Below, piece by piece: positions 29,871 through 39,576 of a stretch of DNA of 39,705 bases (position 1 is the first letter of the stretch; each line of letters starts with the position of its first letter). The notes under the pieces were generated by a model, which was not told the origin of the DNA, did not search any database, and saw only the letters and a program-made list of their open reading frames with translations. The stretch is taken from positions 1 to 39,705 of the forward strand of contig CAIPID010000498.1 of NCBI GenBank assembly GCA_903865015.1, written 5' to 3'. This DNA is from an uncultured beta proteobacterium (lineage in GTDB: Bacteria; Pseudomonadota; Gammaproteobacteria; Burkholderiales; Burkholderiaceae_B). The position numbers and the translations under genes were made by a program.

Positions 29871-31244
29871 ATGTTGAATATCGTCATTCTGGCTGCTGGG
29901 CTGGGTAAAAGGATGCAGTCCAATCTGCCCAAAGTACTGCACACGATTGCAGGTCGATCGATGCTCGCGCATGTGCTCGATGGTGCGCGCGCACTCAACG
30001 CGGATAGTATTGTTGTTGTCGTGGGCCACGGCGCCGAACAAGTTAAGACTGCCTTCAGCGCACAAGCTGATTTACAGTTTGCGCTGCAACAGCCTCAGCT
30101 TGGGACAGGTCATGCTGTACAGCAAGCGATCCCGTTACTGAAAGAGGATGGTGAGGACGATGTCACAATCGTTTTGTACGGTGATGTGCCTTTAGTCCAG
30201 CTCTCAACATTGCAGGCTTTACTGGATGCGCGTCAGGATGGCTTGGCTGTTCTAACAGAAATCCTCCCAGACCCTACAGGCTATGGACGTATCGTGCGTG
30301 ATCTGCATGGCGATGTCCGCGCGATCGTTGAGCATAAAGATGCAAATGAGGTTGAGCGGGCGATCACAGAAGTCAATACCGGCATTATCGCAGCACCTAC
30401 GGCGGCGCTCAAACGCTGGCTCGCACAGCTCAATAATAATAATGCGCAGGGCGAGTATTACCTGACCGATATTATTGGAATGGCTGTTGCTGACGGGGTT
30501 AAAGTCGCCGTCGCACATCCTCAGGCTGCTTTCGAAACTCTGGGTGTAAATAGTCGCATGCAGCAAGCGCAGCTCGAACGGCTCTGGCAGGCAGAGCAGG
30601 CAAGACGGCAGCTTGAGGCCGGTGTGACACTAGCAGATCCGGCCAGATTTGATGTGCGTGGTCAATTAGTCTGCGGACGCGATGTCTTTATCGATGTGGG
30701 CTGCGTATTCGAAGGAGTGGTGACGCTCGCTGATGGCGTGCGTGTAGGCCCACATTGTGTTTTACGTGATGTTCAGATTGGAGCCGGCACGCAGATTGAG
30801 GCATTTAGCCATCTGGACCATGCGCAGGTCGGGTTGGATGCGCGTATCGGACCTTACGCACGACTGCGCCCGGGCGCAAAACTTGCCAACCATACGCATG
30901 TCGGTAATTTTGTTGAAATCAAAAACACCAATTTAGGCGAGGGCAGTAAAGCGAATCATCTCGCCTATGTCGGCGATGCCGATATCGGTGCGCGCGTCAA
31001 TATCGGTGCCGGTACGATCACCTGCAATTATGATGGCGTCAATAAATTCAGGACAGTGATTGAGGATGATGCGTTCATTGGCTCGGACACGCAGCTTGTC
31101 GCGCCCGTACGTGTGGGGCGTGGCGCAACCATTGGTGCAGGTACAACATTAACTGTAGACGCGCCAGCTGATCAGCTCACGATCTCGCGTATTAAACAAA
31201 CAACGATCGCAGGCTGGAAGCGTCCAGTCAAAAAGGCCAAGTGA
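29871..31244 (+). CDS. glmU: Bifunctional UDP-GlcNAc pyrophosphorylase / glucosamine-1-phosphate N-acetyltransferase
   Basis: [22 protein letters not shown]; left-handed beta-helix hexapeptide repeats; [37 protein letters not shown]. Confidence 0.98.
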
Positions 31245-33727: not shown

Positions 33728-34207
33728 TCAAGCGGTTGCGGTCACGGTAATGTTCGTCTCAAATTTACTTCGATGGACGGAAAAGAAACTTCGGACGTTG
33801 CGCACATTGGCCTCTGCCGTCAGTGCGCGATGAACCAGTGCGTGATAGGCCGGCATATCAGTTACTTGAGCAATCAATACAAAATCCGGTCCGGTCGAAA
33901 CCCGATAGCACTGTAGGACAGTTGCCTCTAGCCCCACGCGTTGTTCAAACTGCTGAAGCCTTTCGGCAGTTTGTACGTCGAGCGTGACTTCGATAATCGC
34001 GGTCAGCGTATTGGCGACTTTCTCGGGCGCAACAATAGCAATCTGTTTTTCAATAACGCCGGATTCGATCAGTCTGCGCACGCGACGCATACAAGTCGGA
34101 GGCGAGGCATGCACAATCTCAGCCAAATCTTGATTGGTCAGGCTGGCATCTTTTTGCATCTGCGTCAGGATTCGGACATCGAGTTCATCGAGCGCAACGG
34201 TCGTCAT
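33728..34207 (-). CDS. Lrp/AsnC family transcriptional regulator
   Basis: LDELDVRILTQMQKDASLTNQDLAEIVHASPPTCMRRVRRLIESGVIEKQIAIV HTH plus RAM domain. Start at MTTVALDEL; the ORF extends to 34234. Confidence 0.93.
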   Translation of the reverse strand: MTTVALDELDVRILTQMQKDASLTNQDLAEIVHASPPTCMRRVRRLIESGVIEKQIAIVAPEKVANTLTAIIEVTLDVQTAERLQQFEQRVGLEATVLQCYRVSTGPDFVLIAQVTDMPAYHALVHRALTAEANVRNVRSFFSVHRSKFETNITVTATA

Positions 34208-34233: not shown

Positions 34234-34315
34234 ATAAAGTGAAATATTATTTCACTTTATATATTTAATGATATTAAATTTCATACTTGCCGAATATATG
34301 AAATTTAATATCATT
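34234..34315. promoter_or_regulatory. Three-palindrome intergenic regulatory array between lrp-like and glmS
   Basis: ATAAAGTGAAAT-ATT-ATTTCACTTTAT (34234-34260), then a perfect 19 bp inverted repeat AATGATATTAAATTTCATA (34267-34285) / TATGAAATTTAATATCATT (34297-34315), each arm itself near-palindromic. Confidence 0.85.
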
Positions 34316-34356
34316 CTTTTGTGTGCACAATACAACCATAACAAGGAGAGTGCAAT

Positions 34357-36189
34357 ATGTGTGGCATCGTCGGTGCAGTAGCTTCGCGCAACATCACGCC
34401 CATTCTGGTCGAGGGCCTTAAACGCCTTGAATACCGTGGCTACGATTCCTGCGGCGTTGCCGTATTCGACAATGGTGGTTTACGGCGTGTGCGCAGTACC
34501 GAGCGCGTAGCCGAGCTCGAGGAGCACATTGCGCGAGATCATGTTGCAGGATTTACGGGGATTGCGCACACTCGCTGGGCAACGCATGGCGCACCGGTTA
34601 CGCGTAACGCCCATCCGCATTTCTCTGGACAAGGCACCGACGGCCCAAGTATTGCGCTAGTGCATAACGGCATTATCGAAAACCACGAAGAACTTCGCGC
34701 AGAGTTGCAAGCGCAAGGTTATGTATTTGAGAGTCAGACAGATACCGAAGTGATCGCACATCTTGTGCACCATCTATATCACGGTGATTTGCTCGACGCT
34801 GTGCAACAGGCGATTAAACGTTTGCATGGTGCGTATGCGATTGCAGTGTTTTGCCGCGACGAGCCGCACCGAATCGTGGCTGCGCGTCAAGGCTCACCGC
34901 TTGTAATCGGTCGTGGCAAAAACGAAAACTTTCTTGCCTCTGATGCATTAGCGCTTGCAGGTACGACCGACCAGATTGTTTATCTTGAAGACGGTGACGT
35001 CGCCGATTTACAGTTAGGAAATGTCTGGATCATGGATCAATCAGGCAAAGCCGTGACACGTACGATCAATACGGTGCATGTGCATACAGGCGCTGCAGAT
35101 TTAGGCCCATACCGTCATTACATGCAGAAAGAAATTTTTGAGCAACCAAGAGCCGTAGGTGACACGCTCGAAGATGTTGAGTCGATTGCGCCAGAGATGT
35201 TTGGTGATCAGGCGTATAAAGTTTTTAAGCAAATCGATCGCGTCCTGATACTCGCATGTGGCACAAGCTATTACGCAGGCTTAACCGCCAAATACTGGAT
35301 CGAGTCGATTGCAAAAATACCGGTATCGGTTGAGATCGCAAGCGAATACCGCTATCGAGATAGCGTACCAAATCCCAACACGCTAGTCGTCACTATCTCC
35401 CAGTCAGGCGAAACGGCCGACACGCTCGCGGCCTTAAAGCACGCGCGCGGGTTGGGTATGGAGCAGACGCTCACCATCTGCAATGTCTCGACAAGCGCGA
35501 TGGTCCGTGAGTGCAAGCTCGCCTTCATTACCCGCGCAGGCGTTGAGATTGGCGTGGCGTCTACAAAGGCGTTCACCACGCAGTTGACCGCGTTGTTCAT
35601 GCTGACACTTGCACTGGCGCAAGTCCATGGGCAACTGACCGACGAACAGGAAATAGAGCACGTAAGAGCCTTGCGTCATTTGCCTTCTGCGATTAGCGCA
35701 GTACTCGCGCTCGAGCCGCAAATTATGGCGTGGTCTGATAAATTCGCTGCAAAAGAAAACGCATTGTTCCTCGGTCGCGGCATGCATTATCCGATCGCGC
35801 TCGAGGGCGCATTAAAGCTCAAGGAAATCAGCTATATCCATGCTGAAGCCTACCCCGCCGGTGAGCTTAAGCATGGGCCGCTCGCACTTGTGACCGAGCA
35901 AATGCCGGTTGTGACGATCGCACCTAACGATGCGCTGCTCGAAAAACTCAAATCAAATATGCAAGAAGTCCGCGCGCGCGGTGGTGAGCTGTATGTGTTT
36001 GCAGATGCGGGCACAAAAATTGTGAATAGCGAAGGCGTGCATGTGATCCGTATGCCTGAAAACTACGGACCTCTTTCACCTATCCTGCATACGATACCTT
36101 TGCAACTGCTGGCTTATCACACGGCTTGCTCAAGGGGAACGGATGTTGATAAGCCTAGGAATTTGGCTAAGAGTGTGACGGTGGAGTAG
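34357..36189 (+). CDS. glmS: Glutamine--fructose-6-phosphate aminotransferase (isomerizing)
   Basis: [36 protein letters not shown]; two SIS domains; C-terminal [11 protein letters not shown]. Confidence 0.98.
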
Positions 36190-36404: not shown

Positions 36405-36992
36405 TTAAGCGCAAAGCATAATCAGATTGTTGATTTCAGCCTCTGCCATCTCATGCATTTTTGTACTGTTCAGAATCAGCGCCTCAAGATCGGGTGCGCT
36501 GAGTGCATTCTGGGGATCCATGTTGATGATCTCAAGATACATCGCGATCAGCTCCTCCAGCACATTGATGCTTTCGGCGGCATCAGGATCGAGATCAAAA
36601 TCTTCCTGATCCTGAAAAAATCCATCCATAAACGCATCAAGTTCTTCGCCACGAATACGTGCCTGATTCATTAAGTCGCCAATCGTTGCAGGAATTGCGA
36701 TGGGTGTCAGGGTAAAGGGATTATCTTGATCGGAATGTGCAGAGAGAGCATCCCAGAGACGCGTTAGGAAAGTATCCTGAATTTCTTTGATCGCATCATC
36801 TGAGTCGATCTCAGGAAACTCCCCATCCCACAAGGCATGCAGCTCAAAAGCAGGATCCACAACAAAGGGGCTGGCGATCGCTCCCATGAAGGCAGCTCTG
36901 ACCTCGTGAAGCTTGTAAGGACATTCGTATTTGGTGAGTAAGCGTTCGACGTCTTGATTGAGCACGGTTTTGGAATCCAGAGAGGTAAGCAT
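36405..36992 (-). CDS. Acidic UPF0149/YgfB-like hypothetical protein
   Basis: ~195 aa ORF, Asp/Glu-rich, with LLTKYECPYKLHEVRAAFMGAIASPF and GEELDAFMDGFFQ segments weakly resembling UPF0149. Start at MLTSLDSK; the ORF extends to 37013. Confidence 0.5.
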   Translation of the reverse strand: MLTSLDSKTVLNQDVERLLTKYECPYKLHEVRAAFMGAIASPFVVDPAFELHALWDGEFPEIDSDDAIKEIQDTFLTRLWDALSAHSDQDNPFTLTPIAIPATIGDLMNQARIRGEELDAFMDGFFQDQEDFDLDPDAAESINVLEELIAMYLEIINMDPQNALSAPDLEALILNSTKMHEMAEAEINNLIMLCA

Positions 36993-37006
36993 ATGATTAG
37001 AAGTAT

Positions 37007-37408
37007 ATGACACCCTTACAGAAACTCACGCTTTATTACGATGCCGCCTGCCCTCTGTGCAGGGCGGAGATTCAGTTCTTGTCCCGTCGTAATCAACAGG
37101 GATTGCTTGCGTTTGTTGATATCAACTCTGAGCACTACCAGCCCGAGATTGTCGGGGTGTCGTGTGAGCAAGCCTTGGCTGCGATGTATGGCCAATATGC
37201 TGATGGAAAGTTAATCAGTGGCGTAGATGTGTTTGCCGCCGCCTATGCTCGCGCAAACCTTAAGGCCTTAGCCTGGCTATTTTCGCGAAAAGCGTTGCGA
37301 CCTGTTATGGACTGGGGTTATAGATTTTTTGCTAGAAACCGACATACTATTTCCAGAATGTTCGGACCATTCGCTTTGTGGTTAGTTACGCTCGCAAACA
37401 AAAAATAA
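37007..37408 (+). CDS. DCC family thiol-disulfide oxidoreductase (DUF393)
   Basis: LYYDAACPLCRAEIQFLSRRNQQGLLAFVDINS (DxxCPLC) and WLFSRKALRPVMDWGYRFFARNRHTISR. Confidence 0.9.
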   Translation: MTPLQKLTLYYDAACPLCRAEIQFLSRRNQQGLLAFVDINSEHYQPEIVGVSCEQALAAMYGQYADGKLISGVDVFAAAYARANLKALAWLFSRKALRPVMDWGYRFFARNRHTISRMFGPFALWLVTLANKK

Positions 37409-37813: not shown

Positions 37814-38782
37814 TTACTCTGCCGCCTTAATCCCCGCGTCTTTAATAATCTTGCCAAATAATTCGTAATCAGCCTTGTAGCGTTTAGCCATTTCCTCTGG
37901 CGTGCTTGCAATAATGTTGTAGCCACTTGCGCGCAATTTTTTGGCAATCTCAGGATCCGCCAACGCTTTGAGTAGTCCTGCGTTTAATGTTGCGATTGTC
38001 GCGGGCGGCGTTTTGCCGGGAGCAGTCAGTCCCCACCAGATCGATTGGTTCAGCTCTTTGTAACCACTTTCTACAAAAGTCGGTACATCAGGCAGGACTG
38101 GTGAGCGTTCAGTAGCAACGATTGCGAGTGCGCGGACTTTACCAGACTGGATTTGTGGCAAGAGGCTTGCGACTGAGCCTGTATAGAGGTCAATACGCTG
38201 ACTGATCAGATCGGTATAAGCAAGCGCCCAGCCACGGTAGGGGATGTGTGTCAGATGCACTTTGCCAGTCGAGCGCCACAGGTGGCCGAGCAGATCGCCG
38301 GTACCACCTGCGCCAGGAATACCGAGCGTAAGCTTGCCTGGATTTTTCGTAGCGGCGGCGGCGACATCGGCTAGTGTTTTATAAGGCGAGTCAGGTGCGA
38401 CAACAAATACGCTTGGTGAGGAGGCAACTAAGCCGACGGGGGTGAAATCCTTAAACGTGTCGTAGGATAATTTTTCATAGAGCCACGGGTTGAGTACGAT
38501 GTTGTCAGTCTGAGCGAGTACCAGCGCGTAGCCGTCGGGATTTGCGCGCGCGGTGGAGTCTAGTGCGAGGTTGCCACCTGCTCCAGGTTTGTTTTCAACG
38601 ACCGTTTTCCAGCCCATTTTTTCTGTCATCCCGCCTGCGACTAAACGTGCGAGCGTGTCAGTGCCACCGCCTGGGGGGAAGGGTGAAATGATGGTGATAG
38701 GCTTGGTTGGGAAATCTTGTGCTGAGGACAAGGAGGACATTAGGGAAAGTGCAGAGGCGATTAGAAGTTTTTTTATTTTCAT
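37814..38782 (-). CDS. Tripartite tricarboxylate transporter substrate-binding protein (Bug family)
   Basis: FPTKPITIISPFPPGGGTDTLARLVAGGMTEKMGWKTVVENKPGAGGNLALDSTARANPDGYALV. Confidence 0.95.
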   Translation of the reverse strand: MKIKKLLIASALSLMSSLSSAQDFPTKPITIISPFPPGGGTDTLARLVAGGMTEKMGWKTVVENKPGAGGNLALDSTARANPDGYALVLAQTDNIVLNPWLYEKLSYDTFKDFTPVGLVASSPSVFVVAPDSPYKTLADVAAAATKNPGKLTLGIPGAGGTGDLLGHLWRSTGKVHLTHIPYRGWALAYTDLISQRIDLYTGSVASLLPQIQSGKVRALAIVATERSPVLPDVPTFVESGYKELNQSIWWGLTAPGKTPPATIATLNAGLLKALADPEIAKKLRASGYNIIASTPEEMAKRYKADYELFGKIIKDAGIKAAE

Positions 38783-38926
38783 TGGTTTTATATCTCTTTG
38801 TATGAAATTTAGTTCACATCGAGCTTATAGCGATAGTGACTTATTAGTCTAATTGAATTTAGGGATATAAATATTCAAAATGATTAACTCAAGTCCAGTT
38901 CAAAAATATTGATTTGCACAAGGGTT

Positions 38927-38957
38927 TAACGTTTGACGTTATTAACGATAGTCGTTA
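38927..38957. promoter_or_regulatory. Two tandem palindromes, probable HigA operators
   Basis: TAACGT-TTG-ACGTTA (38927-38941) and TAACGA-TAG-TCGTTA (38943-38957) just upstream of the toxin start. Confidence 0.75.
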
Positions 38958-38964
38958 TTATTTC

Positions 38965-39243
38965 ATGATAGAAAGTTTTGCGTGCGAAGACACGCGAGAT
39001 CTTTTTATGGGTGAGAAGGTTGCAAGATTCGTCAATTTTCAGACGACGGCGATACGCAAGCTTCAGCAGCTCCATGCTGCTCAAACACTTTCTTTTTTAA
39101 GAAAACCGCCAGGTAATCGATTAGAACCACTTCAGGGTGACCTAAAGGGTTATTACAGCATTCGTATTAATGACCAATGGCGATTAAGTTTCTTATGGGG
39201 AGATGGGTCCGTTCATCAAGTACAAATTATTGACTATCATTAA
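38965..39243 (+). CDS. higB: HigB/RelE-type toxin
   Basis: MIESFACEDTRDLFMGEKVARFVNFQTTAIRKLQQLHAAQTLSFLRKPPGNRLEPLQGDLKGYYSIRINDQWRLSFLW: HigB-like. Start chosen downstream of the operator; the ORF extends to 38914. Confidence 0.93.
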   Translation: MIESFACEDTRDLFMGEKVARFVNFQTTAIRKLQQLHAAQTLSFLRKPPGNRLEPLQGDLKGYYSIRINDQWRLSFLWGDGSVHQVQIIDYH

Positions 39244-39255
39244 TCGAGATAAACG

Positions 39256-39576
39256 ATGGCCCGAAAATTACCGCTTGCCCATCCTGGTGTGATCCTCAGC
39301 GAAGACTGGCTAAAACCGCTAGGTTTAAGCCAATATGCACTAGCACGTGCAATCTCGGTGCCGCCAAGAAGAATCAATGAAATAGTAAAAGGCTTAAGAG
39401 GTATTACTGTTGATACAGCATTAAGACTTGCAGCGTTTTTTGGAACCGATGCCCAAAGCTGGATTAACTTGCAAACACACTACGACACAGAGCTCGCACG
39501 TGAGGCGATGTCTGAAGTGCTTTCACATATTGTTCAATATGAATCTTCGGCTGTTAGACACGTTAGTAAGAAATAA
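39256..39576 (+). CDS. higA: HigA family antitoxin (XRE)
   Basis: HPGVILSEDWLKPLGLSQYALARAISVPPRRINEIVKGLRGITVDTALRLAAFFGTDAQSWINLQTHYD. Confidence 0.95.
   Translation: MARKLPLAHPGVILSEDWLKPLGLSQYALARAISVPPRRINEIVKGLRGITVDTALRLAAFFGTDAQSWINLQTHYDTELAREAMSEVLSHIVQYESSAVRHVSKK

Follow-up and report, generated by a model that had tools for sequence, protein, structure and literature searches.

A rigidly spaced array of palindromic sites between a divergent Lrp-type regulator gene and glmS in Burkholderiales

Results

The regulator gene and glmS

The window analysed here is a 39,705-nucleotide stretch of DNA from an uncultured beta proteobacterium, in which a gene for an Lrp/AsnC-type regulator and a divergently oriented glmS gene share an intergenic region (Table 1). 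GlmS is the first enzyme of amino-sugar/cell-wall synthesis and directs both carbon and glutamine into precursors of the cell wall and of LPS; glmU (29871-31244) lies upstream of glmS within one gene cluster. The window also carries a 202-aa minus-strand ORF without a Pfam match (36405-37013), which adjoins a DCC1-like thiol-disulfide oxidoreductase gene (37007-37408), a minus-strand gene for a TctC-type tripartite tricarboxylate receptor (37814-38782) and, at 38914-39576, a HigB-like (RelE-type) toxin gene beside an HTH antitoxin-like gene, probably a type II toxin-antitoxin pair.

Table 1. Genes, binding-site candidates and expression signals at the lrp/glmS locus.
Feature	Position	Strand	Details
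lrp/AsnC-type regulator gene	33728-34207	minus	ATG at 34207; 159 aa; winged HTH and RAM ligand/oligomerisation domain
Site S1, TGAAATATTATTTCA	34240-34254		centre 34247; adjoins lrp, may overlap lrp -10
Site S2, TGATATTAAATTTCA	34269-34283		centre 34276
Site S3, TGAAATTTAATATCA	34299-34313		centre 34306; over the position of the glmS -35 hexamer
Perfect 19-bp inverted repeat from S2 and S3	34267-34315		arms 34267-34285 and 34297-34315, 11 bp between
Probable glmS -10 element, CACAAT	34326-34331	plus	inferred from conservation
glmS ribosome-binding site, AAGGAG	34343-34348	plus	read from sequence
glmS, glutamine--fructose-6-phosphate transaminase (isomerizing)	34357-36189	plus	610 aa; NCBIfam TIGR01135, 828.6 bits (cut-off 418)

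The 159-aa regulator scored above cut-off with the Pfam models HTH_24, HTH_AsnC-type and AsnC_trans_reg: an AsnC-type winged helix-turn-helix forms its N-terminus (PF13404, 52.4 bits, cut-off 27; PF13412, 61.2 bits) and a RAM/AsnC ligand-binding domain its C-terminus (PF01037, 47.9 bits, cut-off 25). Its nearest solved relatives are an Agrobacterium AsnC-family protein (3i4p), N. meningitidis NMB0573 (2p5v) and E. coli Lrp (2gqq), the latter two also being matched by Foldseek with the structure model. That model is a monomer with a pTM of 0.50 and an unreliable domain arrangement, and domain placement accounts for a whole-chain TM of about 0.47. Residues 67-143 are modelled confidently (pLDDT about 90) and match stand-alone RAM structures at 1.6-2.0 A, so that the model backs an Lrp/AsnC identity at the level of the domains only. 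A preliminary description of this DNA had called the gene product Lrp-like, an assignment borne out by both defining Lrp/AsnC domains in Pfam and by Foldseek. Judged by its profile scores the regulator is nearer to Lrp than to AsnC (90 vs 27 bits), and it falls far under the cut-offs of both equivalogs (E. coli-type global Lrp, NF008370, 90.2 bits against 233; AsnC, NF008384, 26.7 bits against 227).

Three phased sites in the window

Between the two divergent genes lie three 15-bp sites of the form TGAwATnnnATwTCA, spaced 29 bp (S1-S2) and 30 bp (S2-S3) from centre to centre. S1 sits at the centre of a perfect 27-bp palindrome (13+1+13, 34234-34260). The preliminary description had reported three palindromic units 29-30 bp apart, the second and third forming a perfect 19-bp inverted repeat around an 11-bp spacer; the coordinates and spacing of the units were reproduced exactly, and the repeat was confirmed.

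The array is not due to chance. The strict pattern TGAWATNNNATWTCA matches the window three times, where shuffles predict 0.02 matches, and none of 5,000 dinucleotide shuffles of the intergenic region gave three sites scoring at least 9/10. Across the whole 3.58-Mb assembly (86.7% complete) the strict pattern occurs in four places and a reversed control pattern in none. Three of these places are S1-S3; the fourth (C342:4407-4421) lies within an unrelated ORF and looks accidental.

Conservation of the gene pair

Relatives were recruited with the regulator protein alone, using neither glmS nor the sites. Among them glmS was divergent from the regulator at every locus long enough to show the neighbour, and in 79 of 80 named genomes, the remaining one being cut by a contig end. 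It also held for all 15 additional loci from the order, among which identity of the regulator protein fell to about 50%. Testable orthologues with the lrp-glmS pairing span Alcaligenaceae, Oxalobacteraceae and further Burkholderiales; the genera include Sheuella, Zwartia, Achromobacter, Bordetella, Pusillimonas, Advenella, Pigmentiphaga, Massilia, Herminiimonas, Noviherbaspirillum and Undibacterium. The regulator orthologue is not universal in the order, being found in 19 of 220 sampled genomes at E <= 1e-40. Two MAG records titled Bordetella parapertussis (L047 and L062) match Sheuella/Zwartia-like genomes (L047 as L013, L062 as L012) and are probably mislabelled.

Base-pair-exact conservation of the array

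From the relatives 121 intergenic regions were extracted, of which 102 were non-redundant and 71 formed a stricter non-redundant set. In the 102 regions, GAAATnnnATTTC sites scoring at least 8/10 numbered 2.45 per region, compared with 0.38 in dinucleotide shuffles. Without any anchoring, the distances between site pairs in these regions were 59 bp (82 pairs), 30 bp (44), 29 bp (40) and 89 bp (11), and all other distances together accounted for 18 pairs; in the strict set 124 of 139 pairs stood 29, 30, 59 or 89 bp apart. Phylogenetic footprinting thus returned almost only spacings of 29, 30 and 59 bp, and the three-site array, whose loss from genomes with the same gene pair had been named as grounds for abandoning the preliminary description, keeps its exact spacing in about 100 non-redundant genomes with the pair.

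Anchoring on the 59-bp pair aligned 97 of the 102 regions over about 85 bp free of gaps, with the order S1-29-S2-30-S3-20-"-10 box". S1, at -59 from S3, scored at least 8/10 in 91% of the 97 loci and S3 in 89%; S2 is the most degenerate site (at least 8/10 in 44% of loci, at least 7/10 in 76%). Median pairwise identity was 33% in the linkers vs 77% in S1 and S3, so that selection appears to act on how long the linkers are and not on what sequence they have. The flanks vary: S1 lies 13 to 380 bp from the lrp start and S3 49 to 111 bp from the glmS start, and the distance from the -10 box to glmS is likewise variable. Five loci have no clear 59-bp pair (L085, L130, L133-L135) and show that the array can decay while the lrp-glmS pair persists.

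In 24% of loci a fourth site scoring at least 7/10 lies 30 bp beyond S1, against a background of 1.1%, making a symmetric 30-29-30 arrangement; it is absent from the window's own array. Since S1 and S3, with S2 at half weight, were used for anchoring, this site and the downstream hexamer described below are independent results. Individual examples, with the site 29-30 bp to the lrp side of S1 and mostly symmetric, come from some Bordetella, Advenella and Massilia-type loci (L064, L066, L099, L104, L112, L083). Might a four-site array mean one site for each dimer of an octamer?

Two features of the window did not generalise: neither the 27-bp extension of S1 nor the 19-bp S2/S3 repeat is general in relatives, and the family feature is the 15-bp site. 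In a separate clade-specific variation, S1 of Achromobacter and Bordetella (L053, L055, L057, L060, L061 and others) has a conserved TTTAATCAC in place of TTTCA, so that the right half of the site is altered in this clade with the spacing unchanged.

Register of the array with the promoters

A conserved hexamer (CACAAT, TACGAT or TAGCAT) occupies positions +20 to +25 from the centre of S3 in the 97 aligned regions, and the unanchored check found it at +20 in 53 of 71. If this hexamer is the glmS -10 element, transcription would start near 34338 with a leader of about 19 nt, and S1, S2 and S3 would be centred near -91, -62 and -32. A TTGACA-like -35 element with a 17-bp spacer was matched at 4/6 or better in a single one of the 97 loci; the -35 position falls inside S3. 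A promoter proposed by scanning (TTGCCG-16-TATCAT, 34287-34314) was rejected, as it scored at chance level and its first hexamer lies in the unconserved S2-S3 linker. On the lrp side, many relatives' copies of S1 (GAAATTATATTTC) hold a perfect TATAAT on the opposite strand, which could serve lrp; the window's S1 has only a weaker version. As read from these motifs, the array would cover the glmS promoter and probably that of lrp as well.

Specificity and co-absence

Of 61 related genomes, 28 have the 59-bp-spaced pair (at most 3 mismatches) at lrp/glmS. Extra matches came from a second lrp/glmS copy in one assembly (G005) and from an overlapping register at the same place in another (G032); two genomes (G042, G056) each had one match away from lrp/glmS, probably by chance. 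The near confinement of the paired pattern to lrp/glmS points to a local regulator with one target, and the strict and paired patterns both indicate one target region. In a search for a wider regulon, a relaxed pattern (at most 2 mismatches) hit 218 places vs 61 for its reversed control, an excess not interpretable alone because the control differs in dinucleotides. The two lrp/glmS copies of G005, on C38 and C1, carry different arrays within one assembly, which at 7% contamination is probably a mixed bin.

Neither regulator nor sites were found in a genome of the same genus (G013, 100% complete) or in one of the same family (G035), both with intact contigs at this place and both retaining glmS behind a glycosyltransferase gene. 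The sites were likewise not found at five more distant glmS loci lacking a regulator orthologue. Five further assemblies (G002, G009, G016, G018, G022) were left out as negative controls, as no glmS was found in them either. The co-absence in G013 and G035 is supporting rather than decisive, because one deletion, or a missing insertion, could remove gene and array together.

Discussion

The exact spacing of the sites, and their distance to the glmS promoter, are kept in about 100 relatives, which makes the array very probably a dedicated switch for both genes. From sequence comparison we hold with considerable confidence that it serves as operator for a dedicated, local regulator of the Lrp/AsnC family; this regulator would repress its own gene through S1 and set glmS expression through S3. 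Dimers of Lrp-family proteins are established to bind at sites separated by two or three helical turns, in many cases as a DNA-wrapping multimer (PMC2995911). The preliminary description had proposed that the phasing fits such multimers, and both the 15-bp site type and the three-turn spacing agree with known Lrp operators (PMC2995911, PMC10201364).

We propose autorepression via S1 and glmS control via S3 on the strength of these precedents (PMC2995911, PMC10201364) and of the promoter register. At intervals of three helical turns, and all on the same face of the DNA, S1, S2 and S3 would each take a regulator dimer; the dimers would probably belong to a single octamer, with some 90 bp of DNA bent or wrapped around it. 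Self-repression would act through S1, where overlap with the lrp -10 is possible, and glmS transcription would be set through S3, at the -35 place and a fixed 20 bp from the -10. A fixed S3-to-minus-10 distance without a -35 leans towards activation and a site over the -35 position towards repression; we slightly prefer activation, which a small-molecule effector might relieve or strengthen. The effector could be an amino-sugar phosphate or an amino acid, for example glutamine. Glutamine appeals as a candidate: GlmS uses it as a substrate, and some Lrp-type regulators, such as Sa-Lrp, are known to bind it as a ligand (PMC3584215).

The nearest competitor keeps the same regulator and array and makes the multimer a pure repressor, which would occlude both promoters and turn lrp and glmS off whenever the cell has ample amino sugar or amino acid. 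This is quite possible, its chances in our estimate somewhat below even: S3 sits on the -35 position and S1 can sit on the lrp -10, in the usual class II activator geometry a site with its centre at about -32 would collide with sigma region 4, and PA2577 provides an example of a local Lrp-type regulator that represses a divergent gene (PMC8707732). However, simple occlusion needs neither an S3-to-minus-10 distance fixed to the base pair nor the lack of a -35 consensus, and glmS is normally needed for growth, which would require its promoter to function unaided and with no -35. That fixed distance also bears on whether the array autoregulates lrp alone, with glmS a bystander that starts nearby. 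Lrp-type regulators most commonly serve in autoregulation (PMC2995911) and S1 is among the best conserved sites, but S3, nearest glmS, is equally conserved, it is the glmS -10 that holds a constant position relative to the array whereas the S1-to-lrp distance wanders, and the pairing is retained in every testable orthologue; we regard this explanation as unlikely.

It is rather less likely still that the sites belong to another DNA-binding protein. The adjacent regulator is assigned to them by inference, but array and regulator occur together and are jointly absent from G013 and G035, and both the 15-bp site and the spacing of three turns resemble those of Lrp proteins (PMC2995911, PMC10201364). 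With its 11-nt loop, the perfect 19-bp inverted repeat could also suggest an RNA element, whether leader hairpin, terminator or riboswitch, comparable to the glmS ribozyme of Firmicutes. We rejected this as highly improbable, with Rfam, terminator scan and leader fold all against it: no Rfam family reached gathering score (the glmS ribozyme included), no terminator-like site was found by the scan, and the predicted leader together with the beginning of glmS has a poorer fold than shuffled sequences (z = +2.1). Moreover, it is the 15-bp sites and not the 19-bp repeat that relatives share, and the conserved -10 would put the repeats upstream of the glmS transcript, making S1-S3 DNA operators rather than leader RNA.

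With the dedicated operator as the preferred reading, a broader proposal can be put forward tentatively, as one less likely than not to hold. In a large part of Burkholderiales, glmS might be controlled by a dedicated Lrp-family multimer on a rigid site-29-site-30-site-20-minus-10 unit, sometimes with a fourth site and a symmetric 30-29-30 spacing; RNA polymerase would need the wrapped octamer for its recruitment to the -35-less promoter, and in place of a classical Lrp amino acid the ligand might be glutamine or an amino-sugar phosphate.

Several ~15-bp palindromic sites, spaced 29 and 30 bp and conserved in a divergent intergenic region, give the locus a layout of the BarR/Ss-LrpB type. Ah-BarR and Sa-BarR, Lrp-type regulators of Sulfolobales, are likewise local and divergent from an enzyme gene, and the intergenic region between the two genes holds three semipalindromic sites of 15 bp, some of them separated by three helical turns; BarR forms an octamer with wrapped DNA, and in a heterologous host Ah-BarR represses itself and activates the divergent gene (PMC10201364). 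BarR differs in being archaeal, in its aminotransferase target and in its response to beta-alanine, and its spacings are mixed (17 and 27-29 bp) and vary among related species, whereas here 29 and 30 bp are fixed over ~100 genomes (PMC10201364). Ss-LrpB of Sulfolobus also has three conserved sites in its own control region, where cooperative dimers wrap about 100 bp in a concentration-dependent autoregulation; it differs in being archaeal and unpaired with glmS, and no amino-acid effector was found for it (PMC2995911). Among bacterial systems, E. coli AsnC, in the summary given in PMC8707732, is a local AsnC-type regulator that activates the adjacent amino-acid synthetase gene and represses itself, with product feedback; its target is asnA, not glmS, and the regulator described here is closer to Lrp. 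PA2577 of Pseudomonas aeruginosa is a local Lrp/AsnC regulator divergent from one target, PA2576, but it represses a transporter gene and has one reported pseudopalindrome (PMC8707732).

In the literature searched, subscription journals and RegPrecise aside, control of glmS by a regulator of the Lrp type was not found described. The level of GlmS is set by NagC and the sRNAs GlmY-GlmZ in Enterobacteria and by the glmS ribozyme in Firmicutes, systems that serve the same purpose through other classes of regulator. The array is a concrete candidate controller of glmS in Achromobacter, Bordetella, Massilia and relatives, and its exact spacing over ~100 genomes makes it a good natural system for studying how Lrp multimers read DNA geometry. 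Set beside the known systems, the protein family and the style of the operator are familiar; new, as far as the searched literature shows, are glmS as the target, the wide distribution of the pairing and a rigidity of operator plus promoter that is exact to the base pair.
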